Positions 1 to 64,000 of a DNA stretch of 64,000 nucleotides are shown here, one piece after another. Each line of letters opens with the position of its first letter. Position 1 is the stretch's first letter. The notes below the pieces were generated by a model. It saw nothing but the letters and a program-made list of their open reading frames with translations, had not been told where the DNA came from and did not search any database. This DNA is from Pezizomycotina sp. ARF18. Lineage: Eukaryota > Ascomycota. The stretch lies in contig AZLU01000215.1 of the NCBI GenBank assembly GCA_002224055.1, positions 1 to 64,000 of the forward strand. The letters run 5' to 3'. A program made the position numbers and the translations under genes.

Positions 1-752
1 TCGGCTGCTGCGGCTGGGTAGACGATGCAGAGGCGGGGCGTGTTAGGTTGAAAGGGAATTTAAACTGTTTGTTGAACGATCCGGTAGCATTGTGCGGGGC
101 GTCGAGGACTCCGTTCGGCGAATGGGAACGCGAATCCCGAGAGGAATCTTCTATATATGTGTTGCTGTCGATGATGGTTTCGCTGCAGCGTAGCTGTTGG
201 AGAGCTTGCATTTACTAAAACAGAATCTTGCGAGATAGACTTTATAGAATTAACCTACCCGATTTGGAGTGGCGCTTCCGTTGGAGGCACGCCAGGCGAT
301 CTCCGCGGATACTGTAACGATGCGCTCTCTTGAGTGAGGTGCCCCCCGCCTGGCAGGACAACTGGCCGCCGGGTCGTACCGTCAGGCCCCTGCTCCGACC
401 CTATCGACATGATCGATATCGACCTCTTGTGCGCCTGGTTTGCCTCGTTGGGTTGATTGTCCGGACTTTTGGTGTCAGGCCCGCTGTCCATAGCAGCGTA
501 CCCATCGAGGTAACACTTCGCGACCTTCCTGTGGCATCGACAGCGATAACGGACGCCTGGCCCTTTGCCGCGTCCGGCAGACCGGCGGTATCCGGGGCTC
601 AGGAGAGAACCCCGCGCTTTGTCGGAGGCAAAAGCTGCAGCGGCGGCTGCTTGCTTTCGTCGTTCGAAACATCGACGTGTTACCCCGCCGCTGGCGTTCC
701 CGTTCATCCCATGCCGGCTCCGTGTTGCCCGCCCTCGGGCATAAGGAAGCAT
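1..752 (-). CDS. Hypothetical protein, 3' part off the left edge
   Basis: I do not recognise this gene. The minus strand is much more GC-rich than the DNA that follows, and long open stretches switch between frames. A frame ending near 255 contains a Ser/Pro/Gln-rich, apparently disordered stretch (DTKSPDNQPNEANQAHKRS, then ISIMSIGSEQG). A plausible intron (GTAGGT near 257 to CTGCAG near 186) would join it to an open frame rich in Ser and Asn that runs to base 1. In the 475-750 part, another frame reads QPPLQLLPPTKR and DTAGLPDAAKGQASVIAVDA, which looks more protein-like than the longest frame. I infer one or two indels. Low-complexity composition would suit a regulatory protein, but no domain is visible. 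The start is not fixed and may lie up to about 900. Confidence 0.35.
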
Positions 753-1359
753 CCTACATTCTTAAAGGTGAATCGTACACTCGAGCTTCTCGCCGGCGAA
801 GACAGCTCCTTGTCCCGTACGTTACGAAAAGGCGTATTTCGACATGGATCCGTTTTTCACCCCTCGATTCCCTGGCGGAATTGTCGCCTGTCCTCCCTGT
901 CCTCCACGAAGTTGAAGCGTAAAAAAAAAAAAAAGAAATAGACTGGCCGAGCGTAAGAATCGAAGCAATTTTGAACAGGCACTACTCCCCTTCCCTTCCG
1001 TCTCCCATAAAAACAGGCGATTTCGCTTCGGTTCCAATCAGTTAAAACCCGAGGTCCGTTCCGGCTTGAAGATGGGTCGTAATGGCGTTGCGTGGGAAGG
1101 AAGCAATTTGTAGATGCTGACGTTTAACCAAGGAATGGAAAAGATAAAAGGAGCGGGTAATGAATGAGCTGAAAAACTGTTTCCTGAGTATTTTTTTAAA
1201 AACGGTTAAAGAGACATGAAGGAAAACGGAAATAGATGGTGGAAACGATAAACTAATAAATAATAAATAAAATAATAATAAATGTACAAAACAAAATCGA
1301 AAGAAGAACGAGTTAGAAAGGAAAGATAAAAGATTGAAAATAAATAAATAAATCAAAAG

Positions 1360-1392
<33 letters not shown>

Positions 1393-6200: not shown

Positions 6201-7146
6201 ACTTACGTTATCAGGCTCTTCCCCATCCAAGCGATATCGCGCACCAAACTAGTACATTTATTGCTCGAATGAAGCTTCACAGTACCATTTCTAGAAGCCG
6301 GCATGGACCATATGTAGACAAATCCATCATTCATCGTTCCAATTGAAGCTAGCCATCGCGAGCAAGGGCTGAAAGCAACGCATTGCACCCCAAAAGCATG
6401 CTCGCCAAGAATTGCAATTGGCGCTTTGTCATTCAATCCGTCTTGTGCCATGGAATATATTAGCACCCTTGGATTGTATCCAGTCTGAGATATATAAGAG
6501 TTATAAAAACAGGTTAGTTACTCATTATTCATCTTCTCTCTTCTTTTTAATTTTATATGGTTTTCCAGGCTTTCGAAGCCATTTTCGTGCGAAATCTAAC
6601 GACGGAAGTATCTTGAGTCGATACGCACCTCTCCAACCGCTAAGAATCTCCCGTCTGGGCTAAACGAAATGGTAGTCGCAGCCTTTACCCTTTCTCGCGC
6701 CGACCACGTTTTTGATTCTTCATTTTTCCCCGGACTATCGACTGTTGGAGAACCTATTCCTTGTTCTCTCAGCGATGCTGCTGTCCGCGACCTTTGTTCC
6801 TGGCTCCAGTAGGTATTTGAGTCGAACTTGTCGTCGCTGAGCATTGGGCCGCGCTCTTAGAAAGTATTTATGTTTTATTTGCAATTTTTCGTCACGTGCA
6901 CAACGCAAACAGCAGCGCCGGCGCAAAACGCTATCGACCTGGAGGGCTGATGGGCTGCCAAACTGCTACTCGAACTTGAGGTCGTCCCGATCATTTTTGT
7001 AAGAATGAGCGCGTGCGCATTCTCCTTTTCTTGCTGCGCCGGAGCACGGGTCCGCAGAGGCGACCGCGCGATTGCCTAGCAGCAAGTGGTATCCCGGATT
7101 GACCATTGGGCGTAGCGGCGAGGTTTGGGAGGTGAGTAACGCTCAT
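3268..7146 (-). CDS. WD40-repeat protein of the MAPKBP1/WDR62 type
   Basis: This is a WD40 beta-propeller scaffold, the fungal relative of animal MAPKBP1/WDR62. Those proteins bind JNK pathway kinases; the fungal role is not known to me. On the minus strand the N-terminal part reads SFSPDGRFLAVGE (near 6640), then after an intron GVQCVAFSPCSRWLASIG and NDGFVYIWSM (6270-6400), VGLRHVKVWKVDED (near 6090), and NGRNALLGVMSDNLFTSVVA with GEICLLDDS (5830-5950). This order is characteristic of the family. The end near 3270-3540 is a Ser/Pro-rich tail (SPSAPGTPRTPESARDLG) followed by a helical segment. The proposed start is MSVTHLPNLA at 7146. Upstream family-like text (MIGTTSSSSSSLAAHQPSR, then FLRARPNA) lies in different frames, so at least three single-base indels are needed. 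Several short introns interrupt 5000-6600. The family is fairly sure, exon borders are not. Confidence 0.75.
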
Positions 7147-9761: not shown

Positions 9762-12700
9762 TCATCCCGCCATGCTGTGCCTTGGGCGATTTTTGAACCT
9801 CCAATCGTCCCTCTTATTGCCTGAAGAGTGCTTGCGCTGGTGGCCGTTGCTCCCTCTGTGCTTCTTAGGGTTCGAGTTCGTTGCATTGCTGCCGCTGCCT
9901 CTGCCACCGTCGGCATCCGCCATCTCTTCATCCTCGTCATCGTCAGCGTCCTGCTGGCGCTTGTTGCTGAACTTGATCCTGTCCCTCTGACCCCTCTTGA
10001 ATGAATCCTTGCCCTTCAGCGCCTCGATATATGCAGAAATGCCATCGCGCACTTCCCCGGTTGCCAGAGTCTTGGAATTAATGTCCAGCATGGGCTCTTC
10101 GACGTCGTCGTCATCGTCACCGGCGTCGTTGTTATCCTCATCGTCCGAGTTACCAATATAAGCTTCCCAGCTTTGTTAACCTGGCCGGTGTTTTCTCCTT
10201 TGGAGCTTTCGCCTGGCGCGGTTTCGTAGACGATATGTGCGCGAGCACTTCCTGTCGAGGAGATCCAGCGGCTCATCCTCGTCTTCGACGATGTACTGCT
10301 GACCCTTCTTCGCCTTACCGCCGCTACCATTAGCCCTCTTGCTTCCCTCGGTTTCGGATTCCGCATCCGAACTATCGCTCTCGCTCCCGTAAATTGCCTC
10401 CTCAAACTCGACGCGAATTCCGTCCGCCTTGCTGCGGCATGCATCATCTTCATCGTCCGCAAGCACGGCATCTTTCTTCCTCTTCTTGCGGTTTCTCGTC
10501 TTGCGGATGTTGATTACAAGCTTCTTATCTTCCATGGGCACATGCTCCTCTACCAGATCGTACCCGAACCTCCTGATCATGCGCTCAATAATATGCTGAC
10601 CTTAGCCTTGAAGTGCGCTTTGTGTTCGTGAGACCATACCATCAGATTGGGAACCAAGGACCCGAGCCTAGCCACTATCAGATCCCTCGACAAGGATATC
10701 ACGGATACCTTGACGAAGCCGAGCACGGACCGGACTATCTCGCGATTTTTAGATGTTAAGAAAGCATCCATCGTCGAAACGATCTCCTGGACGGTTTCGG
10801 GCTTCAAGTCGTCCTTGAAATGATACACGATCTAGTAACCGCAGTTATCGTAGCGCTGATCATGTGAGGCTCAGGAGAGGCCAATCCACCGCACACCATC
10901 AGGAAATAATCCTCCAAGGACGCTTCGACATCCGGAGCGTCGCGTCATTGAATTCCAGTGTAGACCTCTTGACGACACCGCCGTCTCGCATTTTGATGCC
11001 ATGACGATGAGGAGGTCGAACGCAGCAGCCCTCGCTTTCTCGTTGGACTCCTTGCAAGCTTGTATCACTTCGTCTACGATCGCGAAGATAAACGTCAGAT
11101 CTGATTTTGGCAGCAGCTCCACGACCTTTTCAAGAGTGCAAAGGCGATCCTAGGACAAATTAAAGAATGCGTTAGATTTTTATCGCTATCTACAAGATCG
11201 CTTGAACCTATACTTACTCGTCTAGCCGGAGTAGAGGTTGTCTCTTTGGTGATCTCAGCAGCTCCTGGAGGCCCATGACCTGCTGCTCCAAAGCCGTTTT
11301 GCCGACCTCAGACTCCATGATTCGTGTATAACCTTGTACGCCTTCTTCTGGAGTGCGGATCTTCCTTCTTGTTCACGACCGCGCTGAACACGTTGAACAA
11401 TATTTGCAAGCTCTCACCCGACAGGTACGGTGAGATCGTAACGACGAGGTCCATAAGATTGTGGCTCATTGGGGGAGCACTCTGAGACCCCTTCTTGTGG
11501 GTTTTCTGGCGCTCCGCTTGAGTTTGGACAGGCTCGGAAAGAGCACCGTGTAACGCCCCGGTGACCTTGCCAAATGTTGCGGCAACTTCCTCGGTCTTCA
11601 TAATACTCAAGTAAGAATCAGCGCAGTGCAGAATGTAAGCCCTGAACTGAGGCAGAGTCTCGTTGTATATGTTGAAGAGAACCAAAAGGATGTTAGACGC
11701 AAAAGAGGATAACAAATCGATATTCCGCTTGGCGTCAGCTTTCGACACTCGGTTGAGAAGCAATTCTATGTTATCTTCCTCATCCTCCACTTCCAGCTCG
11801 ATAATAGCCTTATTTGACTCTACAAGGTTTGCAGCCCTTGACAAATGGAGACCCTAAGTTCAGGCTGGGCGTAGAGGACGTTGGCGAGAAGCTCGGCAAA
11901 TTGCAAATCAAAAGCCTGCATGAATTTAGAAGTCAGTATGTGCCGATTCACCTTGGCCTCAATATTACAAACAGATTGATAAATCGGTGAGTAAGTAAAT
12001 GAAATGGTTTTAGCAGGTCACCTCATTCATATCCAAAGGTATTGTACAATATCCTGGAAGATCGACCAAAGCTGTTGGATGACGGTTTCAAATATCTTTA
12101 TTTCAAGGGTCTTCTCGCCGGTGTAACTTTGAATACGCTGATGAAGCGTCTCGAACAGCGGTACAAGCTCTTGTCGAAAATGATTAAGGTTCGTGTTTCG
12201 GACGCTGTCCCGGAGGAGCGGCAGCAGCCATGCGCGCCCGGTTGGCCCGGCTCCGGATCTGTAAGATTCAAAGGGAGGATAAGCAAAAAGCAGTCCGGTC
12301 CCATGGCGCTTATCGCAGCCTTGAGGACCTCATCGCTTCTTCTTTCCGTTAAATGACTCGTCTGATCGCAGCTCTCCAACCGCCCGCAAGATATCCTGAA
12401 GGTACAGATTTGACTTCCATCGAAGCTTGACGAATAAAGCCTGGAAAATGTCAAACACTTCTTTCCACGCCCCTTGATATCGAACGTTAGAAGATCCGAG
12501 GCAGTTGAAGCAATCCTGCGCAAATGCTTGTTTTGATTTTCGTCGTGTGCAAAAGCACGTTATCCGAAATACAATTGATGACCAAAGATACCGCACACTG
12601 TGAGGCAGACGTTCTAATCTCATACGACGGTGATTCTAGAAAACTGTAATGAGAATGAAAAGCTCCGGTAGCTGTGTCAATGTTTGTTCGGGTTCAAACA

Positions 12701-13785
12701 TGGCTGAAACTCCGTATCCCCGCGATATCACCGCTAACCAAGGAGGTAGCAGCTGTGAATCGTTCTTAGACGGGCGAAGCTCTGATATCGCCTCTAAGAT
12801 CCTGGGCAATTTTGCGGAAGAAGCCTCATCCTGCATACTGTCGAATATCATCTCAAAAACGTCAAGCGCAGCCGTGACCATAAGCTCATTGTTCGACTTC
12901 GTTATGCTGAGTAGCACCTCGCAGAGCGGCTCCAAGCGCCTCGTGGGCCAGCCTCTTCCCGCCGCAACAACCCGCACAGCTGTAGGGCGTGTATCGTCTT
13001 AGGGTCGTGCTGCCCGGACTTTGGGGTTTTCGAAGCCAATTCGACCAATGCTTGGAGCGACCTTCCCGCACACATGTCGGAAGCGGGTGGTCAAGGGAAG
13101 GGCTCGGCGGCGGGTTCTGAAGTATCTTTGAGAGCGCATCCTGCGCTCTCTTCCTCACCTTTGGCCGCGCGTCTAAGCATAGGTTAAACAACCCAGCAAC
13201 AGCCCTCTTTGGGCCAATTCACTCTGAGGTATCGTCCATGCTGCGCCATCTTGAGACAGCAGCAGCGTCTCCAAGACACCGATCGAGGACTTTAGAATCG
13301 GAGCTTCCACGTCGGCATTCGTAATGGCTGGGGCCAAATGGGATAAGATATGTACGAACTTGGTACGGAGAAGAGGTTCTGGTGTGAACGGCGCGACAAC
13401 ATCCAACAGATAGACAACAGCGGCACCGAGCTCCTTGTTGACAATCTGGGTTGGTGTAATATACTGGTTCAGTATCGAAAGCAGGCCGGAAAAGTAAGCT
13501 GTAGAAGTGAACTCAGTCTCCTGCTCGCGTAGAATGTCTTCCAACGCATTGAGGATGACCTTGGCCTGCTCAGTGAAAGTGGAGAAGTCATCAGTAAAAA
13601 TATCTAATAAAAAAAGAACTGTTTTTCTTTCTTTTACTACTCATTCTACAAGAGCACATTTTCAAAAAAGGTAAACAGCAAATGATGGGAGTAAATAGAA
13701 GTATGTTTTAATAAAGATTTACCTGAGATTGGTTCTGAAGGTTCGGACTTCGTATTCTTTCTAGTTTCTCCTGTAGAGACGCCAT
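9762..13785 (-). CDS. RRP12: Ribosomal RNA-processing protein 12 (HEAT-repeat ribosome export factor)
   Basis: Rrp12 is a nuclear HEAT-repeat protein that helps export both ribosomal subunits and mature pre-rRNA. The start MASLQEKLERIRSPNLQNQ at 13785 matches the conserved fungal N-terminus and is followed by an intron. The next exon carries LREQETEFTSTAYFSGLLS and LGAAVVYLLDVVAPFTPEP, with LFNLCLDARPKVRKRAQDAL near 13170. Toward the C-terminus come FLTSKNREIVRSVLGFVKVS and VPNLMVWSHEHKAHFKAKV (10590-10760), then IRRFGYDLVEEHVP and the basic RKTRNRKKRKK (10490-10580). The tail is acidic then basic (QDADDDEDEEMADADGG). Length is right for the family at about 1,250 residues. The frame changes many times, including inside conserved text, so roughly eight or more indels are likely. 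A stop at 9762 is used; another frame runs to 9692. Confidence 0.88.
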
Positions 13786-14983: not shown

Positions 14984-16820
14984 ATGAAGCATTTAGCGGC
15001 TCGCTCGCTTGTGGTTGGGGCTCTTTGGTGGACGCGTCAGCCTTCGTCATCATAGACGAACATACCGCCCAGGTCGCTTTCACCCGAGATAACGTGGTGA
15101 ATGATGATACCCATCATCTGTGGAGCGAAGAATTGCACGAAGAGACGGTTCTTCTCCCTGATGCCGAAGAGAGGTTGAACCCGTGGGTCACTACCTCAAC
15201 CGGAACTCAATACGCCAGGGCGACGACATAGGTGGAACGGGAACCACGGGGAGGACATAGAGCTTCATGACGAAGCCGATGACCATAAACCTGATTCAGA
15301 CCCGTTTGCTCCGTCCAATTTCGAAAACTCAAATGGATAGATTCAGAGCATGAGCGTGGTTCAGCATGGAAAGGGAGGCGCAAGCACTGCAACAAGGCTG
15401 CACATTGCCGCAGAGCAGCGTTGCTCGTGGTTGACTATATCAACAGAAGCCGGGCTGCACCTGGAGGTCACCGGACAGGGATGATCATCCACCACCACCT
15501 CTCCAGACAGACATCATCCGTCGCTGCCTCCATCTCCTCACCATCCCCCTCCCCCACGTGGACCGCATCCTCCCCCGCCTCCCCCGGGGAGCATCCTCCC
15601 CATCCTCCCCGGGGAAACACCCGCATCGCCCTCCCCACCGCAAGAGGCCACACCATGAGCATGATTTTACCAACGGCACCATCTTCCAGAACCTGGGCTT
15701 CCAAGTACACCACAAAAATATCAGTCTCATATCGAAGGACAAAGAGCTCACCGAGCTCCTCAATTCTACGTCCGCAAACTTCACGTTCTTTGCGCCGGTT
15801 GACAAGGCGTTCGAAAAGATTCCTGAGCACGGGAAGCATCCTAGCGATGAATTCATTGCGAATCTCTTGCGATACCATACTGCGGCGGAGAATACCCCTC
15901 CGTCGTGTGTTAGTCGAACCTACCATCCCTACTTTGTTTAAGGATGACGGTATCGGCGGTGAAGCGCAAAGGCTGAAGTCCAGCTGGGCCGCCTGAACCT
16001 CTACTCCAAGGCGATAGTCAGCAACGTGTTCAGCAAGAACGGCGTCGTTCACGTGTAGACCACATTATCGTCCCGCCGCCTCCCGCCCACGCCGTCCTCG
16101 AATTCTACCAGGCCATTTAGTACTTTCGTCAACGGCCTTTACAAGACGGGTCTCCACGACCACCTTGCCAACGACAAGAGGTATGGCACGCTCTTCGCGC
16201 CTACGAACGGCGCGTTTAAGCGCCTCGGCCCTAAGGTGCTCGCTTTCCTGTTCTCGAAATTTGGAGAGAAGTACCTCAAAGCGCTGCTGGAGTATCACAT
16301 CGCCGTCGACGGTATACTGTACAGCAACGCCTGGGTGAAACCCAAGGAAGACGACGACGACAAAAGTGGCGCGATGGTCCACCACGAGATCCCGAAGGGA
16401 CGTTTCCACGCTGACCTCCGTACCGCGCTTAAGGGTAGAGATCTTTCGATCGACATCGCGCGGTGGGACGTTTATAAGCTTCAAGATCAATGGGTTCACC
16501 CGCGTAGTCTTCAAGATGGTAAGTTACTTTGCTGTTTCGTTGAATAATATTCTACAATATCTTCTCCCTCCCCCATTTCATTTTAGAGAACCCGTGATTT
16601 GCAAAATTTTTTATCTCATTCTCGGATCTAATCAGACATATATACTAACAAATATCCAAATAGGCGTCGTAAAGGACGGTGTAATTCATGTGCCAAGCAG
16701 GGTCCTCATCCCGCGCGCAGACCCCAGCCCGGTGATTCTGAAAAAGCAGCAGTAAACGATGAAGAGATCTGCATGACGGTCGAGATGCTGAAGGAACGCC
16801 TCGAACCTTATTTAACCTAA
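14984..16820 (+). CDS. Secreted protein with two fasciclin (FAS1) domains
   Basis: FAS1 domains are adhesion modules found in secreted and cell-surface proteins. The start MKHLAARSLVVGAL at 14984 is a signal peptide, followed (after one missing base) by VDASAFVIIDEHTAQVAF, with ASA as a likely cleavage site. A Pro/His-rich linker lies at 15430-15660. FAS1 domain 1 contains NGTIFQNLGF, LTELLNSTSANFTFFAPVDK and AFEKIPEHGKHPSDEFIANL (15670-15870). Domain 2 contains VNGLYKTGLHDHLANDKR, YGTLFAPTNGAFKRLGPKVL and LLEYHIAVDGILYSNAW (16120-16340). An intron at about 16518-16663 precedes VVKDGVIHVPSRVLIPRAD. In the most direct frame translation stops at 16755. One base later, conserved-looking text (MTVEMLKERLEPYLT) continues to a stop at 16820, so I end there. 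I see about five frame changes. No GPI signal is visible. Confidence 0.8.
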
Positions 16821-18763: not shown

Positions 18764-19471
18764 TCAAGTCTTCTTGATGCTGGAGCGATCTAAAGCTTCT
18801 TTCAGCTCGGGCCGATTCGAGAACCTCTCCGCGGCATCCTTGTAGGAGAGCCACTTGCGCTTCCTCTTTTCATTTCGGGCCATTCGGTAGCTTCTTCCAC
18901 GACTTCCATTCGAAAAATAGGTAAAGGGCTCCTTCGGCTTTGCTGGAGGCGGAGGATCCCGGGCATCGCGTATCTTGCCGAGGGCTTTCGAAATTTTACC
19001 GCTAATACCTGCTTCTTCCCAAGCCTCACGTTGGCGGCTACTCGCCGTAGCCTCATCCATTTCCCAGCCTCCTTTGGAAGGACCCAGTGGTTCGGTCTCC
19101 TGAAGACTCTACAAGCATGACTTTTGACTTGTCAGCGGAAAGGGCGACGATCCCAGCAATAAGTCGAGATCCATCTTCTGCGTATCCTGTTTGTTTTTTT
19201 TTTAAAAGGGGGAAGGCGGGAATTGTTAAGTCAGTAAAGAACAGAAAGAGGGAAAAAAAAAGAAAGAAAGGTTCTCTATCATAGATCAGAAAAGAAGGAT
19301 ACTTCGAAAGACGTTCTTGAGAGAACCACCTCCTTAAACAGATTCAAATATAAAATTATGGCGCATTAAAGAGAATTATATTATCGTAGACTTACTCTGG
19401 TTTGTTCTGCCGACCCTGCCTCCATGGGCGGATTGGATAGCTTGTGCGGCCTTTGGAGCTGGAGCGGCCAT
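18764..19471 (-). CDS. APS1: Diphosphoinositol polyphosphate phosphohydrolase (Nudix)
   Basis: This Nudix hydrolase type cleaves diphosphoinositol polyphosphates and dinucleoside polyphosphates. Exon 1 starts MAAPAPKAAQAIQSAHGGR at 19471. After an intron containing a short A-T switch region, exon 2 reads YAEDGSRLIAGIVALSADK and RRPNHWVLPKGGWEMDE. The complete Nudix box GX5EX7REUXEEXGU is present (GGWEMDE, then REAWEEAGI). One G is missing in the run just before the box; the frame otherwise continues to RSSIKKT and a stop at 18764. The tail is basic (ARNEKRKRKW, then SYKDAAERFSNRPELKEAL), as in fungal Aps1-like proteins. Length is about 170 residues, usual for the family. Gene symbol by homology to yeast Aps1. 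Confidence 0.85.
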
Positions 19472-29039: not shown

Positions 29040-30462
29040 ATGAGCGGACGTAGCAAAGCTCCCAAAGTTCCTCCTCCCCACTACGAAGTGGGCGATCGCG
29101 TTTTATGCTTCCACGGCCCTCTCCTCTACGAAGCTAAGTCCTGACCGTTAAGCCCGGTACCATCGATCCTCCCACTTCTCCACAGTATAAGTGCATTAAG
29201 GCTGGAAGTCGAGGTGAGTTACAGTGGACCTGGTTCTGTCATTTTAGACTTCCCAAATCTGTTTTGGGATGGATTCAGAGGAATGAAAGCGCCAGCCACG
29301 GCTCTGAAGCTTTTATTCCACTTCTTCTTGCACAATACGCCTGTTTGGTCTAATACGGTCTCCTAACTTGTGTCTTCTCTTGTAATAGTTGGATGAATGG
29401 GTTCCTCAAGACAGAGCTCTAAAGTGGAGCGAAAGAATTTGACACTGCAGAAGAATCTGCGCGAGGAGCACTTGCCAAAGAGAAAGGGAGAAGAAGAAGG
29501 ACACCAAATCGGCACCGACGAGCCCACGGGCCCAGCGCAACCTATGCAAAACAACAAGAAGCGTCCTAGGGAAATGGACATGGACAAGGTGGGCCCGCCC
29601 TTAGCATCACGTTCTTTCACCCATCCAAATTGTACAGAGAAAAAAAAGAGTATCGTCTCCCCACTTTTTCTAACATCACCTGGCTTGTATGGTATTAGGA
29701 AGAGGATTATAACAGGCGCCTTGAGATAAGGATGGAGGTTCCGGATAATCTGAAATCGCTGCTCGTGGACGACTGGAGTATATTACGAAGCTTGGCCAAC
29801 ACGTTCCGCTGCCTCGAGATCCTAACGTCGCGGATGTTCTCGACGACTATCGCAACCATGCCAAGAATTCCAACAATAGCCCGATAGACCCTATCATGCT
29901 CGACGAACTCACCGCCGCTGAATTATACTTTAACAAGGCCCTGGGCACCCGTTTGCTATACAGGCACGAGCGCGAACATATGCCAATATCAGGCTGAAGC
30001 ATCCGGACAAGGAAATGTCATGAAATTTATGGCGCGAGCATCTCGCTCGCATGTTTGGTACATTTCTCTTCCTCGGTACAACTATATATATATACGTATA
30101 TATGACTAACAATCTTTGAAGTAATCATGCCAGAATTAGTCGCACACACGAATCTCGATATCCAATCCACGAACGTCCTTAAATCCTATCTCGAAGACAT
30201 GCTCACTTGGATGGAGAGCAACCACGCGAAGTATTTCTTGCCTGGATACGAGGTGGTACGCCTCCCAACGGTGCGAAAACGGCGGCGGCAAAGAAACTTA
30301 AGCACCACCAGGTCTTCAAGTGGGACATGCACCTCTTTATGTTCGGATATGAAGCCAACGCAAACTCGATTTCAAAATTGCGCGGAATTACCGAAGACTT
30401 TATTGTCAAATTTCGGCGGCCACTCCATACTTTGTCATCCCTATACTCTTCTTTTTGGATAA
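29040..30462 (+). CDS. EAF3: Chromodomain/MRG-domain protein Eaf3 (MRG15)
   Basis: Eaf3/MRG15 is a subunit of the NuA4 histone acetyltransferase and the Rpd3S deacetylase and reads H3K36 methylation. The start MSGRSKAPKVPPPHYEVGDR at 29040 opens the chromodomain, continuing VLCFHGPLLYEAK. One G is missing before the expected V-L, then TVKPGTIDPPTSPQYKCIK and an intron from 29216. The chromodomain resumes as LDEWVPQDRALKWSER (29394). A charged linker leads to the MRG domain: RLEIRMEVPDNLKSLLVDDW (29720-29780), PLPRDPNVADVLDDYRNHAK, ELTAAELYFNKALGTRLLY (29900-29960), and after an intron MPELVAHTNLDIQSTNVLKS and WMESNHAKYFL (30127-30240). The aromatic strand expected just before DEWV was not found. 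The last 200 bp do not match the family, so the true stop is uncertain. About five indels. Confidence 0.85.
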
Positions 30463-31786: not shown

Positions 31787-33592
31787 ATGCCACCGTCGTC
31801 GTCCTCGTCGTCGACATCGTCGACGCTGACGTCAGTGCCTTCACAGCGTCCTCACTTCGATCGCCCTGCGCATAATGACCAAGGTTACTTCGAGCCGACC
31901 CTGGCTTCCTCGCACGCGAACAGCCACATTAACAGCCACACCACCGCCAACACGCCAACACCGCCGCGCAATCCGCCTCGACAGTGGCCGCCGTCGCGGC
32001 CGTCAGGGAGTTCTCCCGCAAAAAGTCCAGAACGACTCCCCCCCGTCTCGCCGCCTCACAATGTAACCCATTCTCGTCGGCGCAGGGGCAGCTGCCCTCG
32101 CGGCTATGCCCAAAGTAGAAGCAGGAGAAGGAGAAGGAGAAGAAGGAGTCCAAGATGAAACTGTTTTCGAAACCCGCCAGGCTGGCGGCGCGTCCTCGTC
32201 GAAGCAGCACCTGCTCAGTAACGCTGACAGCTCCTCAGCCAACACGTCCACCACTTCCCTGCCAGCTCCGCCAGCAAACCCATCCCTCGCCGTCCAAAGT
32301 CGCTCACATAACCCGCAGTCAGTTCTCTCGCGTTCCAGCCGCTGTCACCGGTGAAGGATCGCGCCGCCCGTCGTTCACGCAGTCACTCTCCGACAACGCA
32401 GCCATGTACTCCTCGTCGCCGCCGCAAGCTTCATCGCACACGCACCACAAACACCAATTCCTACTTAGGAGGGGGAAGATAAGGACCTACTGTCGAGCGC
32501 CAGTTCCAACTCGAAGCCTACTTCCTCGGACGCACGACGTTGTACTCATTTGGACCCAGCAGTCCCTCAAACTCTGCCTTTTCATCGGTAACCGCTGTGT
32601 CAGGTTCTGGAACAGAAAGGTTACGACTTGAAGCACGTCGTATCCGGCGGCTCCGGGAAGGATAAAGATGGCGTGGAACAATCGCTGGAAGATGTCTGGC
32701 CCCTTATAAGGAGTAGGGTCCTGCCACTCTTTCTAGGTGCAGGGCTAGGAACCCCTGTCGAAGACCTAAACAAGCTGTTACAGTGCGTCTAGTAGAATCC
32801 ATGTTTTTTGCGCGCTCGATTTCTCATTCATTCCTTAATTTCCATTGCCTTGGGAAAAAGATGAAAAAGAAAAAGAACCCCTCTCATTTCTAATCACTTT
32901 TCCAAATAGGTTACATATACGCCGCCAGGTGGACCGCAAAACGGCAATAAACCTCATCGAGGACACTCGGGCGCTACTAGATATGGGTATGCAATCGTTA
33001 GATAATGCCCTGTCGAGACTTCCGACGAGAAGCTCATACCGCGGCTCGTGGAGATCTGGGGCTTCGTGTTCGGCACTGTGCTGCCGTATTTCGAAGCCGT
33101 ATTCCTCCCGCTGCAGCAGGAGTTCAGGGCACCGGCGCGGTAATGTCAGCAAGGGAAGCCAGGGAAGCGTGGGGCGAGACGGAAGAACGGCTCGATATCA
33201 GGAGGATGTGTCTGATAAGCTACAGGGACAATATTATTCTCCCTTTGCACAGCAGACTAAGGAGTAAGACCTCCGTCCACCGTGTTCTTTTGTAAAATGT
33301 GTGATATATATATATATTTTCTGGCAGAAGGTGAGGGATTTGTGTGCTAACGATGAATTTTGCAAATAGTGATATCTCGAAGCTGCAGCTCGATTTCGAC
33401 GTCCTGACGAACGTCACCGAAACCGTGGCACGGGTTCTACAGTGCGTTAGTGTACTTGCCTCCGTTTTGTCGAACGACGACAAGCAGGCAAAGATGGACG
33501 AGCTGGCTAAAAATCTCAAGCACAACTGGTTGAGTCGCGCAGGACTGGCAGAAATAGGAGAGGATTCGTTGGCACGAAGACCAAGCGGATAA
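31787..33592 (+). CDS. HbrB-like TORC2 subunit (Bit61/PRR5 family)
   Basis: HbrB-domain proteins (yeast Bit61, human PRR5/Protor) are subunits of TOR complex 2. The start at 31787 gives a Ser/Thr-rich disordered N-terminus (MPPSSSSSSTSSTL) that continues through Ser/Pro/His-rich text to about 32480. The conserved domain begins LEDVWPLIRSRVLPLFLGAG and TPVEDLNKLLQ (32680-32790). After an intron come VDRKTAINLIEDTRALLDMG (32930-32985), RLVEIWGFVFGTVLPYFEAV, FLPLQQEFRGTGAVMSAREA and DIRRMCLISYRDNIILPLHS (33040-33260). These are the most conserved segments of the family. A last exon from about 33365 reads ISKLQLDFDVLTNVTETVAR and ends at 33592. The frame changes about four times, in the disordered part and at the start of the FVFGTVLPYF segment. 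Confidence 0.82.
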
Positions 33593-34158: not shown

Positions 34159-36465
34159 TTATTCCCTGTTCAAGGTCGACCAGGTTGCCCTGCTGCTGTA
34201 AGTCTGTTGCTCTCCATCAGGCCTGTTCGAGTTATCGCGCGTGTCTTTGTTCCTTGCCTGCCCTTGCCCTTGCCACCAGCAGCAGACCTTGGTAGAACTC
34301 ATTGATGACCTTGCCGGATACCATATATCGATATGTCAGTGACCTGTTCTTTTCCAAATTTCGAGTCTCAGAAAACTTACGGTTCAGGAGCTCCTTGGGA
34401 TAGATTCTGAGAAGCGACCATGCAATAGAGATAATGTTGCGGTTATGAGCACGGTCAACGAATATTTGCCCTTCAGTGATGTAACCGGTAAGATCCGGTT
34501 AGGATGGGTAATATCGTCGTTAGGATGAATAAGAATGGGTATCTGAAGTAATTGAGCCGTTTCGGCTTCAACTCGACCAGCGCGTTCGTAAATCGTCGAC
34601 AAATCCGTGTACATATAACCTGGATAACGTCGACCAGGAACCTCCTCGCGGGCAGCAGAGACTATATGGGTCCAAAAACAATATGAACTTAGAGCCGTTT
34701 ATTACAAAGATAAGCTAAGAAGCCGCCTTCAAGCTCACATACCTCACGAAGAGCATCGCAATACGCAGACAGGTCAGTGAGGATGACCAAAACGTGCTTC
34801 TCGAGCTGATAGGCGTAGTATTCAGCAGTAGTTAAAGCAGACGAGGTGTAATGATACGTTCAATCCTGCAATAGAAGCGAGTGATATTAGAAACTGACCC
34901 ATCCTTTAAAGAGCCCATCGAAGAGCCTCACATACCTCACGAAGAGCATCGCAATACGCAGACAGGTCAGTGAGGATGACCAAAACGTGCTTCTCGAGCT
35001 GATAGGCGTAGTATTCAGCAGTAGTTAAAGCCAGACGAGGTGTAATGATACTTCAATCCTGCAATAGAAGCAGAGTGATATTAGAAACTTGACCCATCCT
35101 TTAAAGAGCCCATCGAAGAGCCGGGATAGGAGAGCTTACGTTGGTCATTCGCAAGATCAGGAACAGCGTGACTCTTTCCAAGGAACCATTCTCTTCGAAA
35201 TCTCTGGTGAAGAAACGACTCGTCTCCATGTTCACACCATGCTGCGAAGACGATGGAGAAATTGTCCTCGTGGCCATCATGAACATCCTTCGTAACCTTA
35301 ACCAAACCTGGCCTGACGACAAATCTGAGCGCAATTTCGTTATGCGGTAGACCTGCAGCGGAGAAAATGGGAATCTTCTGTCCACGGGCGATAGAGTTCA
35401 TGCCGTCGATAGCGATAGCGGATATACCCGTGGAAGATCATTTCTTCGGGATACACACGGTGACGGATTGATTGGGAGCCGTTGATGTCCAGGTAATCCT
35501 CGCAAAGATTTTGGTCTCTATCAGCGGGCTTTCCGGATCCTGTGAACACGAGTAATCAGGATGGGGTAAGTAACCCGTCGCGAACTTCAAGGACAACAGG
35601 GCGATTCGGCATGCTTAAGACTGACCATTGAATATACGCCCCAACATATCTTCCGAAACTGGTATCTTTAGGTTGGAGCCAGTGAACTCGACGATCAACC
35701 AAAAAAAAAAAAATTTTTTTTTTAGCTCTCTATAATGCAGCATTGAAAACGAGGAAGTGTGCTCACCCCTGGTCTTCTTAACATCGATCCCGTCGTCCCT
35801 TCGAAACCTAACATTGCGTAACAGCGGCTTAGCGATATGCCCTAACAAAGATGTTCTACATTAAAAGGTTGTGAGAATCGATGCCTACCTGAACAATAGC
35901 TCTGCTCCCCTAACCTCCAGTACTTGACCAGCACGTTTCGAGCCATCGGGTAAGGTAAGTTCAACGATCTAGTGAACAAAGAAGAAGTGTTAAATTTTGT
36001 TATCTTTGAGAGAGGAACCGCGAAGATCGTGGAAGGAGTCGCCAAAGGGTATTTTTACTTCGTTGTACATCGGGAACTTGACGTCATCGAGAATGACCAA
36101 AGGACCTAGGACTCCATTAGTTATCGCCATATGCAAAAAGGGAGTCTGGTAGTGTATCTCATCGTACCGTTGACACCTCCGACCGTGTTGTATCTCAGGC
36201 GAGGTTGGACGGAATAGTTTCTGCAGGAGACACTTGCTTAGCAGCCCGAACACACTTTCACCACGATCTGAAAACGAAACCGAAGCAAGGTGTTTTTACC
36301 TGGTAACAGCCGCAGCATTGATAGCAAACGCCTTGAAGGCCACAAATAAGTGATGTCAGCATTCTATAACACATACTGTCTCTATCTAAGATAGATATGG
36401 GGACAGTCTTTGTATAAGTTCAGCTCTCGTTACCTCTTGGGCGGTCATTCGGGGTCGGAAGTCAT
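34159..36465 (-). CDS. VMA2: V-type proton ATPase subunit B
   Basis: This is the non-catalytic nucleotide-binding subunit of the V1 sector that acidifies vacuoles. It starts MTSDP at 36465 and has about ten short introns. Recognisable blocks in order: [15 protein letters not shown] (36180), [17 protein letters not shown] (36060-36110), [20 protein letters not shown] (35645-35700), [11 protein letters not shown] and RVYPEEMI (35440-35500), [20 protein letters not shown] (35350-35401), [17 protein letters not shown] (35260-35310), [20 protein letters not shown], then [20 protein letters not shown] (34590-34660) and NDDITHP. The C-terminus reads [15 protein letters not shown], then an intron and VINEFYQG. 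Two structural faults: an exon plus intron is present twice (34734-35122), and a conserved segment of about 85-90 residues between the HNR motif and IAWSLL is missing. More than ten indels. Both faults look like assembly damage. Confidence 0.9.
34734..35122. repeat. 193-bp tandem duplication inside VMA2
   Basis: Two direct copies lie head to tail, 34734-34926 and 34927-35122. Each holds the exon encoding [16 protein letters not shown] and about 60 bp of the preceding intron. I aligned them by eye and found four differences, each a 1-bp indel, and no substitutions. Only one copy is needed to match the family. Confidence 0.93.
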
Positions 36466-39209: not shown

Positions 39210-41410
39210 ATGCCTAAAGATGATGCAGAGTCAATCTCGATCGAGGAGACTAACAAGATTAGGGCATCGCTCGGCCTAAAACCTCTACGTGTCGAGCCAA
39301 AGAATGAAGCGGCAGCGCAACCACCACCGCAGCCGGCGAAGGATGAGAAGACGAAGGATTCATTCTCCATAGAAGAAACTAACAAGCTGCGCCAGGCTTT
39401 GGGACTAAAGCCGCTCAGGAAGAATGATGACGAAGATGGGGCACCGGGCGGGACAACAGTTTCGACTCCCAGGAGAGGCGCGCCGTCGACAATTGGAAAA
39501 AGCATCAGGAGGAGGCCGACAGGAAACTCGCCAGAGAGAGGAGAATCGAGGCTGTAAAGAAGGCAAAGGAAACCGCGGCGAGGCTGACGAAGCTCGAAGG
39601 AAAGGGCCTGGCAGACGACGACGATGAGGAAGATGCCGCCACGTGGGTGAAGAAGCAAAATAAGAGGCAAAAAAAGCTCGCCGAAAAGTACGAAAGGGAG
39701 CTTGCCGAGATGGAGGCAGAAGCGCAAAGGGAAAAGAAGGACTATACGTCAAAAGATATGGCCGGCCTACGAGTGGGGCACGATGTCGAAGATCTGCAGG
39801 ACGGAACGGATGGAACAATTCTCACACTGAAGGATGCTACAATTTTAGATAATGAAGGTAAGAATAAACCTGACCACCTGTTTTCTTTTGTTCCTTCTTT
39901 CTATATTTTCTCATTTTCTTCATATATTTGCTAACGGCCGTGGGACCTCTGTAGATGAAGGGGATGAACTTGTGAACACGGAATTGACCGAACGCGAAAA
40001 GCTCAGGGACAAGCTTGACCTCAAAAAGAAAAAGCCTGAATATAACCCGTATGAGGAGGACGATGACGGACTCAATAAAAGTGTTCTTGCCAAGTATGAC
40101 GAGGAAATCGACGGCAAGAAGAGGAAGCATTTCGTCCTCGACGATACTGGCAGCTCAGGGCTTGTTGAAGGAAGGGACGCATCGAGAAGGGAACAAATAG
40201 CACAAAAGCTGAAGAGGATACCAATAAATCTCGACTCTATACGGACGGAAGAGGCTTCTGATTACGTGGACCCGTCGACCGTCAAAATTCGCAAGCCGAA
40301 GAAGAAGAAAGCGAAAACATCTCGGCGCCGTGTTGAGGACGAAGAACTAGACATGTTCATGCCCGAAAGGACCGCAAACGGAGATGGGATGGAAATCGAC
40401 TCGGGAGCTGCTGAGAAAACGAAAAAGGTCGACGCAGCGGAGTCATTTGTTGATGATGATGATCTTTCCAGTGCACTTGCTTTACAACGGAAAGCTGCTC
40501 TAAAGAAGCGCAAGGTGATGAAGCCGGAGGATATCGCCCGTCAGCTCCGCGAAGAGTCCAAACCCGAACCCGAAGATGCGGAAGGCGAACCTGCTCTTGT
40601 TATTGACGAAACGAGCGAGTTCGTTTCTTCCCTCCGTGCGCCTGTTGTCCCCGAGCGCCGCAAAGTAGTCAAGGCCGCATCGGCACCACAAGAATCGCCG
40701 GAGCCGCAGGAGCCCGCCGCTGAGAAGGACATCGATATGGAGCGCGGTAGCCCGAAGATGAGGACGAAGTTATGCAAGAAATTAAGCAGGAAGAAGAAGA
40801 GGAAACCGAAAAGAAGACCGAGGCAACCTCCGAACTTACGTCGACCGGTCTGACCGAGGAGACCACGATCGGCGTCGGTGTTGCGGCAACTCTCAAGATG
40901 TTGAAGCAACGCGTGCTAATGGACGAAGCTGCAGATCCCGAAGCTCACAGAAAGCTCAGAGAACGGGACACTTTCCTAGCCAAACAGCGCCAACGCCAAG
41001 CGGAAGCGGAGAAACGCGCACGAGCGCAAAGGGAGAGGGATAGGAATAGCGGCAAGTTCGATCGCATGAGCGCTAGGGAAAGGGAAGAACACGCCCGGTG
41101 GGAAAATAGGCAAAGGGACCAACAGGAAGCGCGAGAAGCGGCGCAGAGCTTCAAGGACTACAAGCCCGAAGTTAACTTGGAGTACAAAGATGAATACGGC
41201 CGTAACATGACTCCGAAGGAAGCGTTCAAGTACCTGTCTCACCAATTCCACGGTAAAGGATCCGGCAAACAGAAAACGGAGAAGAGGCTCAAGAAGATTG
41301 AGGACGAGAAGAAGCGAGCCGCCGCGAGCAGTCTTAACCCCGAGGGCATGGTCTCGACTGTTGCTAACGCTGCTAAACTGTCCAAGAAGCCTGGCGTGCG
41401 TCTCATGTGA
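39210..41410 (+). CDS. SNU66: U4/U6.U5 tri-snRNP protein SART1/Snu66
   Basis: Snu66/SART1 is a tri-snRNP protein needed for spliceosome activation and binds the ubiquitin-like protein Hub1. The start [20 protein letters not shown] at 39210 gives a first Hub1-interaction (HIND) element at residues 10-26, and [17 protein letters not shown] at 53-69 is a second. After one missing base near 39463 come [40 protein letters not shown] and [18 protein letters not shown]. An intron at about 39856-39953 follows. Exon 2 reads [20 protein letters not shown] and FVLDDTGS, then Lys/Glu-rich text. After a second frame change near 40750 it reads [19 protein letters not shown] and the signature C-terminus [20 protein letters not shown] with [18 protein letters not shown]. 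Stop at 41410. About 700 residues, fitting the family. Confidence 0.93.
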
Positions 41411-43710: not shown

Positions 43711-45960
43711 ATGTTTGTTCAGAAGGCGTCGCTTACTGCCGGTAGGGCAGCAACGCTTGCTCCCACAGCGTTTCGAAGTTCTACCGCCCGAGCTGCGATC
43801 ACGGTCGCGTCCCGATCCGTTTCCTCCTGGGCGGATGTTCCTCAAGGACCTCCTGTAAGAAGAACACGCACGATATTGCTGATGGAATTGCAGAAGATCT
43901 GGGCCTTCCTAGATTTATTTCTTGCCCTTAAACCATTTGATATTCAAAAATTGCAGCGACCAAATGCTAATTCTTGATTTCTCCGCAATAGGATGTGAGC
44001 TTGACGTGAAAAGAAGATGAACAAACAACAGAAAGAAACATGAACTTGCTGCAAGGAATTCAACGCTAATTGTATCGTGTACCTGATTTTGAGTAGGCGA
44101 TTCTCGGTAAGCTTCCGTTTTAGCCATCTAATCTCCAGTTCAGGCTGCCGTATTAGGAATTGTGTTTTAATTAACTAAAGTTGGGTTTACAGGCATCACC
44201 GAAGCTTTCAAGGCAAGCACCAATAACAAAAAGATAAACGTTGGTAAGTGTTCAGTCGTCTTCTTCTTGCAAGACACTTCCGTACAGTGTTATCACCAGA
44301 GATATACGTTGCTTTCTCGGTCTTTTCAAATCTTGTAATTCGAGAATTTCAACGGCAGCTGACAGGGATATTTTGATATATAGGCGTCGGAGCTTATCGC
44401 GATGATTCGAATAAACCCTATGTTCTGGGTAGCGTCAGAACGGCAGAACAAAAGATTGCGAGCACCAATATGAACAAGAATATGCGCCTATTACCGGGCA
44501 GGAAGCCTTCAGGAAGCACGCATCGGAGCTCGCGTACGGTAAGGGTTCGCAGGTCATAAAGGACGATCGCATTGCAGTAACCCAGTCAATCTCTGGTACT
44601 GGCGCTCTCCGTATCGGTGGGGCTTTCTTCGAAAGGTTCTACCCCGGAGAGAAAACGATCTACCTTCCCACCCCGACTTGGGCCAATCACGGCCCGATCT
44701 TCAAAGACAGTGGTCTCAATGTTAAGTCATACCGTTACTACGACAAGAGCACCATTCAGCTTGACGAAGCGGGGCTTCTTGAAGACTTGAAGAGTGCTCC
44801 AAATGGCTCGATAGTTTTGCTTCACGCTTGTGCACACAACCCAACTGGAGTTGACCCTTCCAAAGAACAATGGCAGAAGATATCTGATGTCGTCAAGGAA
44901 AAGAACCATTTTGCCTTCTTCGACATGGCTTATCAGGGCTTCGCCTCTGGAGATTGTGATCGGGATGCATATGCCTTGAGGTTGTTCGTCGATGAGGGAC
45001 ACAATGTCGCTTTGTGCCAGTCCTTTGCCAAGAATATGGTATCCTCCCCTTACGAATCTCACGCTCATATTATATTATATTTGCTGCTCTCGTTACGGTA
45101 ACTAATTTACAGTTTGGGAGACTAGGGTCTTTACGGAGAAAGAGTCGGTACATTCTCTCTCGTCACCAGCTCGCAGGAAGAGAAGAATAGGGTTGAAAGC
45201 CAGCTCAAGATTCTTATCAGGCCTATGTACTCGTAAGATATACTCCCCGCCAACACCAAGACTGGCAAATATTAGGCTTTAGGCCACTAACACGGTAGTT
45301 ATGCCCTTCTTTTCTAGTAACCCGCCAATCAATGGTGCAAGGATCGTTACGGAAATCCTCGGACACCAAGCGCTGAGAAGCCTCTGGCTGGCAGAAGTAC
45401 AAGAGATGGCGAACAGGATGAAGAAGATGAGGAGCGAGTTGAAAAGACCAGCTTGAGAAAGCTGGCTCGCAGCGTGATTGGTCTCATCTCACGTCCCAGG
45501 TACAAAAATCTTTGAGCATTTATCCGTGACAGCCTGTAGCACTAACGGATACGGCGTAGATTGGCATGTTTATTTATACCGGCCTGACCCCTCAGCAAGT
45601 TGACCGTCTCAGAGATGAGGTACTGTGTTCTCCAACATTAATTATTTTCTGCTATTTCAATTCAATATTACAATACTGAAAAATCTCTACTTTAGTTCGC
45701 AATCTTCGGCACGAAGGATGGCCGGTAAGCATTGTCACTCAAACTTGGCTTTTAATTCGCGGTCATTCCATTGTGAAATATTACCGTTTGCTAACTCTGT
45801 TTTTTCGATAGTATGTCCGTTGCGGGAATCAACTCGAAGAATGTTGAGTAAGTTGGCGACTTCATGCCGTTCTCTTATATGTTGAGATACTTGCCATTGC
45901 TAATCCTTTCTCCTCCACAGGTACCTGGCCAATGCAATCCACACGGTTACAAGCTCATAG
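43711..45960 (+). CDS. AAT1: Mitochondrial aspartate aminotransferase
   Basis: This PLP enzyme interconverts aspartate/2-oxoglutarate and oxaloacetate/glutamate and acts in the malate-aspartate shuttle. The start at 43711 yields a basic, Ser/Ala-rich mitochondrial presequence ([20 protein letters not shown]) before [11 protein letters not shown]. Later exons read [17 protein letters not shown] and [20 protein letters not shown]. The main exon reads [60 protein letters not shown] (substrate and PLP contacts) and LCQSFAKNM, where the Lys is the Schiff-base residue. It continues after an intron as [18 protein letters not shown]. The C-terminus has [20 protein letters not shown] and [12 protein letters not shown], stop 45960. 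Eight or more short introns. Indels are visible near 44480 and 45450. Length matches the family. Confidence 0.95.
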
Positions 45961-50980: not shown

Positions 50981-51120
50981 GAAATCATTCCATCTTAATA
51001 TTCTACCAGTATTTATAATAATAGAAATATCCTAGTTTAGAGATCGGCACAACACACCAATAATTAACTAGTTAATATTTTTATACTTTAATAATTACTT
51101 AGACACGGAATAAGTTAGTC

Positions 51121-51145
51121 TCGGACCCTCCTTTGGAGGGTCCGA
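51121..51145. repeat. Perfect 11-bp inverted repeat with 3-nt loop
   Basis: The arms are TCGGACCCTCC (51121-51131) and GGAGGGTCCGA (51135-51145), separated by TTT. This GC-rich hairpin stands alone in TA-rich DNA. It could be the terminus or centre of a small inverted-repeat element, or a transcript hairpin. Confidence 0.85.
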
Positions 51146-60486: not shown

Positions 60487-60827
60487 GGAAGAGGAAAGGG
60501 CGTTGGCAGTCACTTACTTTAAGAAGTACTGTTATTTTAAATATAGCGAGCGTATATCTAGTAATTAAAGAGCTTTGGAGCCCTTTTTACTGCTATATTT
60601 TCTCCTTCCAAAGTATTCGCCAAAGTCCTCAAAAGTAGTTTTTTGCGGAGTATTTCGCTTTTGCCCCCGCGAATTCCTTGAAGCTTAATCATCCCCGACA
60701 TCGGGTCAGTAGTAAATAAAGTATTCGTGGACGCGGGGTTTGGAAAAGAGGGATTCTATCTTTATCTTATCCTCGCTCTCTATATTTTTTTTTTATTAAA
60801 AAAGAGCCCTCTTCAACCATCGAGATA
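54595..60827. other. Gene-poor AT-rich desert (second part)
   Basis: No supported gene. It holds an A-run of 28 plus (GA)n at 55223-55269, a T-run of 28 at 55510-55537, (TAA)n at 56098-56150, a (TTTC)n/T block at 56250-56284, a 34-A run at 57827-57860, T-run 58908-58932, A-run 60086-60117 and T-run 60458-60486. A/T switches lie at 56760-56774 and 59917-59936. Three CGAGCCAC copies sit at 58219-58249, and a 9-bp inverted repeat at 60351-60376. Open frames around 54704, 57271, 58274 and 59189 show no recognisable protein. The last 150 bp are the 5' flank of xanthine dehydrogenase. Confidence 0.5.
60351..60376. repeat. 9-bp inverted repeat with 8-nt loop
   Basis: AGTAGCTAG (60351-60359) and CTAGCTACT (60368-60376) are exact reverse complements. 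It lies about 450 bp upstream of the xanthine dehydrogenase start. A further AGTAGCT lies just before the left arm. Confidence 0.6.
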
Positions 60828-63800
60828 ATGGCTCCTGGTTTAACAGTCCAGCAAGCGAATGGGGCGGTCGAAGGTCATGTCTCACTCGCTTCAGTCACCG
60901 CGGAGTATGATGACACCATCCGCTTTTACCTGAACGGCTCCAAGGTCGTCATCGACACCTACACGATTAATCCTGAGGTCACGCTTCTGGAGTATCTGCG
61001 TGGAGTCGGGCTTACTGGAACAAAGTTGGGTTGTGCAGAGGGAGGATGCGGCGCATGCACCGTTGTACGTTTGCACATAGAATTAGAATGTTCCTGCACG
61101 GCTTCGGTTAGAAAACAAGAAAAAGGAGAAAATATAGGAAAATGGTTTCTAATGGAAAAAAAGTTATAATACTTATTTAAAACTTGTTACTGTTATACAT
61201 CATGAGGTTTTCTGAGAGAGAAAAGGTTAGAAGGCGGTATATATTTCTGACATATATTTATTACCCAGGTCGTTTCGCAATATAACCCCACAACAAAGAA
61301 GATATATCATGCTTCAGTTAATGCGTGCCTGGCGCCGTTGATCAGCGTCGATGGCAAGCACGTTATCACAATTGAGGGATTGGTAACTCGAAGAGACCTC
61401 ATCCCGCCCAAGAGAGAATTGCCAAATGGCATGGCTCTCAGTGCGGTTTTTGCACCCCGGGGATCGTTATGGTTAGTATCATATAACCTCTCACAAAAAT
61501 ATCCTGTTTGATTTGGTTCGAAAGCGCGCCGTCGCCATGTGTAGCAGGATCACGAGCTGACTACATCTTCTGTGCAGAGCTTATATGCTCTACTCCGTAA
61601 CCATCCTGAACCGACGCATCATGACGTGGAAGAAGCGTTCGACGGCAATCTCTGCCGGTGTACGGGTTACAGGCCAATTTTGGATGCCGCTCAAACGTTC
61701 AGCGTGGACAGTTGCGATAAGACAACCACCAACGGCGTGGCGGGTGTTGCATGGCGAATGGAAGCGGTGAAAGACCTGCCGGCTGTTGTATGAGCCGAGA
61801 TACGGCTGTTCCAAGGATGGACATGGGATAAATGGTATCGGTACCATAGGGCTCGAACGGCTCCGCAGAAGGGGAAGGCGAAGAGAAGAAGCGGTTCACG
61901 CCGCCAGGTTTCCTGGAGCTGAGGGCTGATCAGGAGCTCATATTCCCTCCTTCCTTAACCAAACACGAATTTAAACCCCTCGCTCTTGGGAATAAACGGA
62001 AGAGGTGGTATCGACCAGTGACCGTAGAGCAGCTCCTCCAGATCAAGAGTGCTTATCCGAACGCAAAATTATCGGCGGAAGTACCGAAACCCAGATCGAA
62101 ATTAAATTCAAGGCAATGAAATACGACACGTCCGTCTACGTAGGGGATATTCCAGAGCTACGGGAGTATAAGTTTAACGATGATCACGTCTACATTGGCG
62201 CGAATATTACTCTTACGGATCTCGAAGGCGTTTGCAAGCAGGCAATTGAGCACTACGGAGAAGTCAAAGCGCAGCCGTTTCAATATCATGGCCAAGCAGC
62301 TCATGTATTTGCCGGACGACAAATTCGGAACGTTGGAACACCAGCCGGCAACCTCGCCACTGCATCTCCGATATCAGACCTGAATCCTTGCTTTGTTGCT
62401 TCTAACACCACTCTCGTGGCCCAATCTTTTAGACGAAGGTGAATTTGACATCCCGATGACCGAATTCTTCAAAGGTTACAGGAAGACGGCGCTACCGATG
62501 AATGCCGTAATTGCCGGGCTTCGTATTCCCCTTGCACAGGAGAAGGGAGAGTATTACCGGCGTACAAGCAATCCAAACGGAAGGACGATGATATTGCGAT
62601 CGTTACTGCCGCGTTGCGGGTCGCACTGGATGATGAGCAGAATGTGAAGTCTGCTAGTCTCGTCTATGGCGGCATGGCTCCGTTTACTGTAGCCGCTAAG
62701 CAGACGATGGAATATTTAGTAGGAAAGAATGGACAGATAACAGGTGCTAGAGGAAGCCATGAGCATTCTCGAGAAGGATTTTGACCTCAAATTTAGCGTT
62801 CCTGGTGGTATGGCTACCTACCGGAGAGCGCTTACCTTCGGCTTCTTCTACAGATTCTGGCAGGAAACCGTTGCGGCAATCGGTGGCGAAGATGTCGAAG
62901 CGGACGAAGAGGCAACGGCGAAATTGTCCGGAACATCTCGTACGGAACCAGAGATCAGGATAGCACAGTTGCTTATGAACAAAGGGTGTTGGGAAAGGAG
63001 TGCCGCACGTCGCTGCGATGAAGCAAACAACTGGAGAGGCGCAGTATACTGAAGACATCCCACATTACAGCAATGAGCTGTACGCCTGTCTTGTGCTCTC
63101 GACCAAAGCGAGAGCGAAGATTTTGAACGTCGATGCGTCTCCCGCCTTGGAAATGCCGGGTGTTCACAGCTACATCAGCCACCTGGACCTTCCTACCCCG
63201 GAAGCGAACTGGTGGGGAGCTCCGGTCTGCGACGAAATTTTCTTTGCCATCGATGAGGTATCACCGCTGGGCAGACAATTGGGCTCATTTTAGCCGAAAC
63301 TGAGCTTGCAAGCTCAAGCTGCTGCCCGGCTGTCGTCGTTGAGTACGAAGATCTTCCAGCCATCCTCAGTATTGAGCAGGCTATCGAGAAAGAGAGCTTC
63401 TTCCAGCATTATAGGTTCATCAAGAGAGGCGAGGAGATTGAGGAGGCACTGAAGAGTGCCGATCGGATCGTAGAAGGTGTCTCAAGGATGGGTGGCCAGG
63501 AACATTTCTACCTCGAAACAAATGCATGCGTGTTGTGCCGAAGCCCGAAGACGGAGAGATCGAGATATACTCCAGCACTCAAATCCTACCGAAACACAGA
63601 CGTATGCGGCAAAGATTACCGGCGTTCCTGCTAACCGTATCGTGTCTAAGGTCAAGCGCCTCGGCGGTGGCTTCGGTGGTAAAGAGACGAGATCCTGTAT
63701 GCTCTCGTCCGTCTGCGCTCTCGCAGCGAGGCGGGCAAAGCGACCGGTCAGATGCATGCTGAGTAGGGACGAAGATATATTGACTTCAGGACAGCGTCAC

Positions 63801-64000
63801 CCCTTCATGTGTAAGTGGAGAGTTGGTGTCAACAATGACGGCAATATCGTGGCTCTTGACGCCGACGTTTTCTGTAATGGTGGATGGACACAGGATTTAA
63901 GCGTATGTGCTTTCTCCCCTTTTTTCTTCATGGATGAACAAATAGAGCTATTGCTAACATTGCTTTTTTAGGTGCTGTATGTGAGAGATCGTTATCCCAC
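60828..64000 (+). CDS. hxA: Xanthine dehydrogenase (purine hydroxylase I), 3' part off the right edge
   Basis: This molybdenum-iron-sulfur flavoenzyme oxidises hypoxanthine and xanthine to urate. Exon 1 starts [20 protein letters not shown] at 60828 and carries the plant-type 2Fe-2S site [16 protein letters not shown]. After an intron, exon 2 reads [20 protein letters not shown] and [14 protein letters not shown]. Exon 3 has [20 protein letters not shown], which completes the second 2Fe-2S cluster. The FAD domain follows with [14 protein letters not shown] (62070-62115) and [20 protein letters not shown] (62330-62382). The molybdopterin domain has [21 protein letters not shown] (63490-63525) and [12 protein letters not shown] (63655-63695). 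The last visible intron starts at about 63903. Frame changes occur at least ten times (for example near 61740, 62070, 62435, 62560 and 63270). The remaining roughly 500 codons lie outside. Symbol follows Aspergillus usage. Confidence 0.95.

Follow-up and report, generated by a model that had tools for sequence, protein, structure and literature searches.

The window analysed in this study is a stretch of 64,000 nucleotides from the nematode-eating ascomycete Pezizomycotina sp. ARF18 (contig AZLU01000215.1, C215:1-64000 of 72,477 bases in the genome as analysed, which comprises 408 contigs and 46,361,250 bases). It contains the genes for xanthine dehydrogenase (XDH) and for subunit B of the V-ATPase (VMA2), the latter with a short tandem duplicate, together with recognizable pieces of SART-1, of members of the HbrB, EAF3 and RRP12 families and of several other protein families (Table 1). 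The top-scoring relatives of XDH are found in Orbiliomycetes, with 76.5-78% identity of the aligned residues to the proteins of Dactylella, Orbilia, Dactylellina and Drechslerella, compared to 71.8% for Morchella and 68.3% for Aspergillus japonicus. In both XDH and VMA2, the reading frame changes repeatedly within strongly conserved protein text. The original prediction, which was made from the letters alone, had described single-base insertions and deletions (indels) as a pervasive property of the conserved genes of the window and had ascribed them to uncorrected errors of long-read sequencing.

Frame changes were located with a script that aligns DNA to a profile of orthologues and that permits introns, codon gaps and changes of frame by one or two bases. 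For XDH, the profile contained 108 of the 120 references listed, with lengths of 1340-1392 amino acids (aa) plus P0096 and P0098, and for VMA2 it contained 61 of 120 (495-530 aa). When applied to two intact fungal XDH orthologues, which were back-translated and excluded from the profile, the procedure reported no frame change in either of them, and after planting of 31 indels in each control it returned 29 and 29 events. In a repeat where positions were checked, events lay no more than 20 nucleotides away from 31/31 and 29/31 of the planted indels, with none placed elsewhere. The same procedure identified 31 frame changes in XDH (about 7.6 per kb of coding DNA), 16 located within the window and the other 15 in the part of the contig that directly follows it. 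Of these 31, 24 are short of one base and one of two bases, with the remaining six carrying one extra base. The 17 changes detected in VMA2 amount to an even higher density of about 15.7 per kb and include 11 with one missing base, three with two missing bases and three with one extra base. The claim that indels break conserved genes is thus borne out, and the AAAA that had been singled out ahead of the sequence IGGSTETQ in XDH was found upon direct reading.

The protein text that surrounds these breaks is conserved. The alignment of XDH spans residues 1-1366 of the profile and, in its 1327 aligned codons, contains no in-frame stop, while 583 of 595 near-invariant residues, defined as positions where the same residue is found in at least 97% of the references, are retained. 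Equivalent properties characterize VMA2, where none of the 345 aligned codons is a stop, 320 are identical to the protein of Orbilia brochopaga (P0270) and the near-invariant residues are preserved in 210 of 213 cases, which brings the total for both genes to 793 of 808 despite 48 frame changes. These numbers bear on the possibility that the genes have decayed, as would be the case for pseudogenes residing in a degenerating genome, on an accessory contig or in a dormant nucleus. Such decay would account for the broken frames found in the assembly and for a VMA2 gene that contains an exon duplicate and lacks an inner part, but it would also be expected to introduce stops and missense changes at conserved sites, and this signature of relaxed constraint is absent. 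Moreover, genes encoding the V-ATPase, HSP70, F1-ATPase and SART-1 are affected on several contigs, although a living fungus would be expected to need them. We thus regard decay as highly improbable, in line with the previous view that a simultaneous decay of essential genes is implausible.

The spectrum of the 48 events is strongly skewed, with 39 being short of bases and nine containing one extra. When restricted to one-base events, the ratio is 35 to 9 (binomial p ~1e-4). The inferred missing base can match a neighbour in 30 of these 35 cases, compared to 74 of 132 deletions placed at random in a simulation (Fisher p 0.0014), whereas in five it equals no neighbour. The four two-base events were excluded from this comparison, which was run after a test of residual run lengths that is considered below. 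Distributed by kind, the 35 missing bases amount to 12.5 G, 8.9 T, 8.4 A and 5.3 C. The features expected of long-read error, a dominance of indels while substitutions and stops are rare or absent and, as judged from neighbour identity, a bias towards homopolymers, are thus both found.

An internal replicate is provided by the abutting tandem duplicate in VMA2, which encompasses the end of an intron and the following exon and which is the only repeat within the window among the self-BLAST matches listed. The two copies of this 196-bp duplicate are identical in 193 of 197 alignment columns (97.97%) and differ by four gaps of one base each without a single mismatch. These gaps are located at columns 33, 50, 71 and 92 and, with the splice acceptor at base 64, two of them reside in the intron ahead of the acceptor and two in the exon. 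Three bases are missing from one copy and one from the other, and each of the four nucleotides is represented once among the gapped bases. The differences are explained if the same DNA was read twice and single bases dropped out independently each time. In contrast, divergence by mutation, and with it decay, is disfavoured by the absence of substitutions, since these would also be expected. The duplicate extends the observation to noncoding DNA, in a single small sample where two of four gaps are intronic; scans for tRNAs and Rfam families detected nothing in the window or in 15 sampled loci and thus offered no second noncoding test from this source. The duplicate itself could be either a fault of the assembly or a real duplication. 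Upon a search of the locus 33000-38000 against the genome, we recovered the locus itself and nine short matches to one repeat, but no second copy. A short sequence at 37206-37264 recurs at 84-93% identity on contigs C17, C37, C4, C315 and C285, with a tandem-like cluster on C17.

The same data can be used to evaluate whether the frame might be restored after transcription, either by the insertional editing of single nucleotides in RNA or by pervasive programmed frameshifting. Both processes exist in nature, the former in the mitochondria of Physarum, where it is mostly C that is inserted, and the latter in Euplotes. The excess of missing over extra bases (39 to 9) and the conservation of the protein across each break would be compatible with such a mechanism. 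However, each of the four bases is among those missing, without the single preference of insertional editing, and the shifts are of both signs, thus lacking the one direction and the recurrent site of programmed frameshifting, the latter as judged without a formal motif search. Additionally, the two copies of the VMA2 exon would require shifts at differing places while their introns differ too, and the XDH and VMA2 proteins of Orbilia relatives are found in the database as full-length predictions. Restoration of the frame after transcription thus appears even less probable than decay, and the notion of a fungal nuclear genome that would store its genes with many one-base gaps, to be read by insertional editing of RNA or pervasive frameshifting, is the least credible of the explanations considered.

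Further evidence was obtained from other genes of the window, which were assigned with Pfam in 50 selected open reading frames and in X-stopped frames (1-11 kb, 17.3-27.3 kb and 27.3-37.3 kb on the minus strand, 23.3-33.3 kb and 41.3-51.3 kb on the plus strand) that together cover part of the window rather than all six frames. The HbrB gene passes through three successive frames within about 350 bp, although its first piece, at 21.1 bits, scores just under the Pfam cut-off of 22.7. SART-1, which had not been listed in the original prediction, changes frame in place once (40760/40808), whereas an intron may underlie its other switch, which spans about 94 bp. This gene was considered for the placement of indels and abandoned, its matches among solved structures and proteins being too distant (no more than 63% identity, with part of the query aligned). 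The EAF3-like gene shows several frame changes at 29900-30260 by reading, yet its MRG domain is matched by Pfam in a single frame without net shift. The assertion that the listed genes are each frameshifted several times therefore holds for XDH, VMA2, HbrB and, by reading, EAF3. In case of RRP12, where three pieces were matched in three frames, introns may account for the switches, and Pfam detected no YPD1 in the scanned frames, which cover part of the window. The proposed break at the Nudix box was confirmed by direct reading, and the gene designated FAS1 contains a Fasciclin (FAS1) domain instead of encoding a fatty-acid synthase.

Table 1. Features identified in the window (positions count from its first nucleotide).
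Feature	Position	Strand	Basis and extent
WD40 repeat	6305..6421	minus	Pfam
RRP12	11311..13640	minus	Pieces matching HEAT_RRP12_N and RRP12_HEAT
Fasciclin (FAS1) domain gene	16059..16544	plus	Pfam; profile 3-73 of 123 in the open piece
NUDIX domain	18767..19108	minus	Pfam; frame break directly before the Nudix box
EAF3-like MRG domain	29776..30252	plus	Pfam MRG; three-frame view
HbrB family	32911..33259	plus	Pfam; profile 36-75, 71-116, 131-165
VMA2 (V-ATPase subunit B)	34433..36454	minus	Profile alignment; residues 5-374 of 524
Tandem duplicate in VMA2	34734-34927 and 34927-35122	minus	Self-BLAST; intron end and exon
SART-1	39542..41308	plus	Three frame pieces; profile 3-113, 112-413, 398-585
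Class I/II aminotransferase piece	44433..45098	plus	Pfam; profile 34-222 of 361 in one frame
XDH (xanthine dehydrogenase)	60828..64000	plus	Profile alignment; extends on C215 past position 64000

With respect to its composition, the window contains an AT-rich segment at 48001-52000 with a GC content of 33.4%, compared to 38.7-48.0% in the remaining steps of 4 kb. Long runs of A and T are numerous throughout and reach a maximum of 34 A and 29 T, which is far above a first-order expectation.

The breaks are not confined to the contig containing the window. Matches to HSP70 on contigs C70, C49, C3, C208 and C303 include 31 neighbouring pairs of pieces, 19 of which are contiguous or overlapping but differ in frame. 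Counted here are pairs where the spacing in DNA and profile agrees within 6 nucleotides and where the second piece begins no more than 15 profile positions beyond the first, and 16 of the 19 changes, read modulo 3, are short of one base. By reading, the ATP-synt_ab genes of the F1-ATPase on contigs C24 and C404, which we take to be ATP1 and ATP2, break as well. A search for tubulin returned four partial matches. The longest open frames in 6-kb samples of seven other contigs measure 145-391 aa, compared to 132-334 aa in ten chunks of the window, a comparison that lacks an error-free yardstick. The frame of 391 aa (L054:2155-3330 on C160) is of low complexity, rich in Gly, Gln, Ala and Pro, and was for this reason rejected as a sign of a better consensus in this region. 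Within this sample of the 408 contigs, the distribution is thus that of an assembly-wide phenomenon.

The in-place changes are also informative with respect to the possibility that most of the breaks are unrecognized introns. The genes do contain introns, with eight placed by the aligner in VMA2, one of which does no more than bypass copy one of the duplicate, and five in XDH, two of which adjoin each other. However, introns are already part of the alignment model, and the changes that occur in place, 19 times in HSP70, once in SART-1 and also in HbrB, leave no room for them. As a general explanation, introns are thus about as improbable as decay.

The origin of the assembly offers a plausible source of the observed pattern. 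The published draft of ARF18 was tentatively assigned to Brachyphoris sp. of the Orbiliaceae, the family also indicated by our analysis, and consists of 46,639,970 bp in 412 scaffolds (N50 177 kb, L50 76, GC 44.6%), compared to the 408 contigs and 46,361,250 bp used here (PMC5571426). It was obtained from PacBio data alone, with 142,598 reads of a mean length of 7,686 bp, which by our arithmetic corresponds to a raw depth of about 23.5x, and was assembled in Canu 1.1 following the instructions for low coverage, with scaffolding by AHA; its description neither mentions polishing of the consensus nor remarks on base-level error (PMC5571426). Since the indels are dispersed, consist mostly of one-base deletions with a homopolymer bias, affect intron and exon and are found on several contigs within conserved text, we attribute the frame changes to residual consensus errors of an unpolished low-coverage PacBio-only assembly, with a probability of about 0.97, and thus arrive at the same explanation as the original prediction. 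By this mechanism, single bases would have been lost, in many cases within runs of identical bases, with additions being less frequent, at a rate of roughly 0.8-1.6 errors per 100 coding bases and with the sole testable noncoding stretch affected as well. The indels and their spectrum, their occurrence on several contigs and the conservation of the flanking text are direct observations, whereas we infer that the indels would disappear with accurate reads.

Several results weigh against this attribution or limit its reach. When taken alone, the lengths of the runs that remain in the assembled sequence do not exceed the background, with 27 runs of at least two bases observed and 26.8 expected, and the larger number of runs of at least three bases (11 compared to 8.0, SD 2.5) is not significant. 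The proposed association with homopolymers is thus supported by the identity of the neighbours but not by the residual runs, a test whose counts are too low, since any run is shortened by the deletion that it contains. Certainty is lower for those events of VMA2 that are close to introns and gaps. Finally, errors of one base leave two properties of this gene unexplained, which are the duplicate of 196 bp and the loss of about 90 conserved residues near position 34430 on the minus strand, where the text breaks off at about residue 374 and resumes at about residue 466 of P0270. For these, misassembly or real rearrangement must be invoked, and in case of the gap a local misassembly is likely.

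Related artefacts have been described in other systems. The gene-fragmenting long-read errors addressed by Kastor are frameshifting indels that mimic pseudogenes, as do those found here (PMC12007338), and the errors in homopolymer length addressed by Polypolish resemble the observed bias (PMC8812927). The window differs in the density of indels in the two genes, which is high, as expected for low coverage in combination with a lack of polishing, and in the five of 35 missing bases that match no neighbour.

Collectively, our analysis has characterized what is very probably an artefact of data quality rather than a property of the organism, and the duplicate in VMA2 illustrates that an assembly can by itself, without recourse to the reads, permit the diagnosis of an artefact of this type. 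Gene models are likely split, as had been anticipated, and their number inflated. The annotated set of 14,461 genes with a mean length of 1,028 bp points in the same direction (PMC5571426), as splitting would result in more and shorter genes, compared to the 11,479 genes in 40.07 Mb given for Arthrobotrys oligospora (PMC3164635). In this respect, studies that use the assembly to address gene content, the number of pseudogenes, selection or genes of nematode parasitism could be misled, whereas in the living fungus the genes themselves would be intact.

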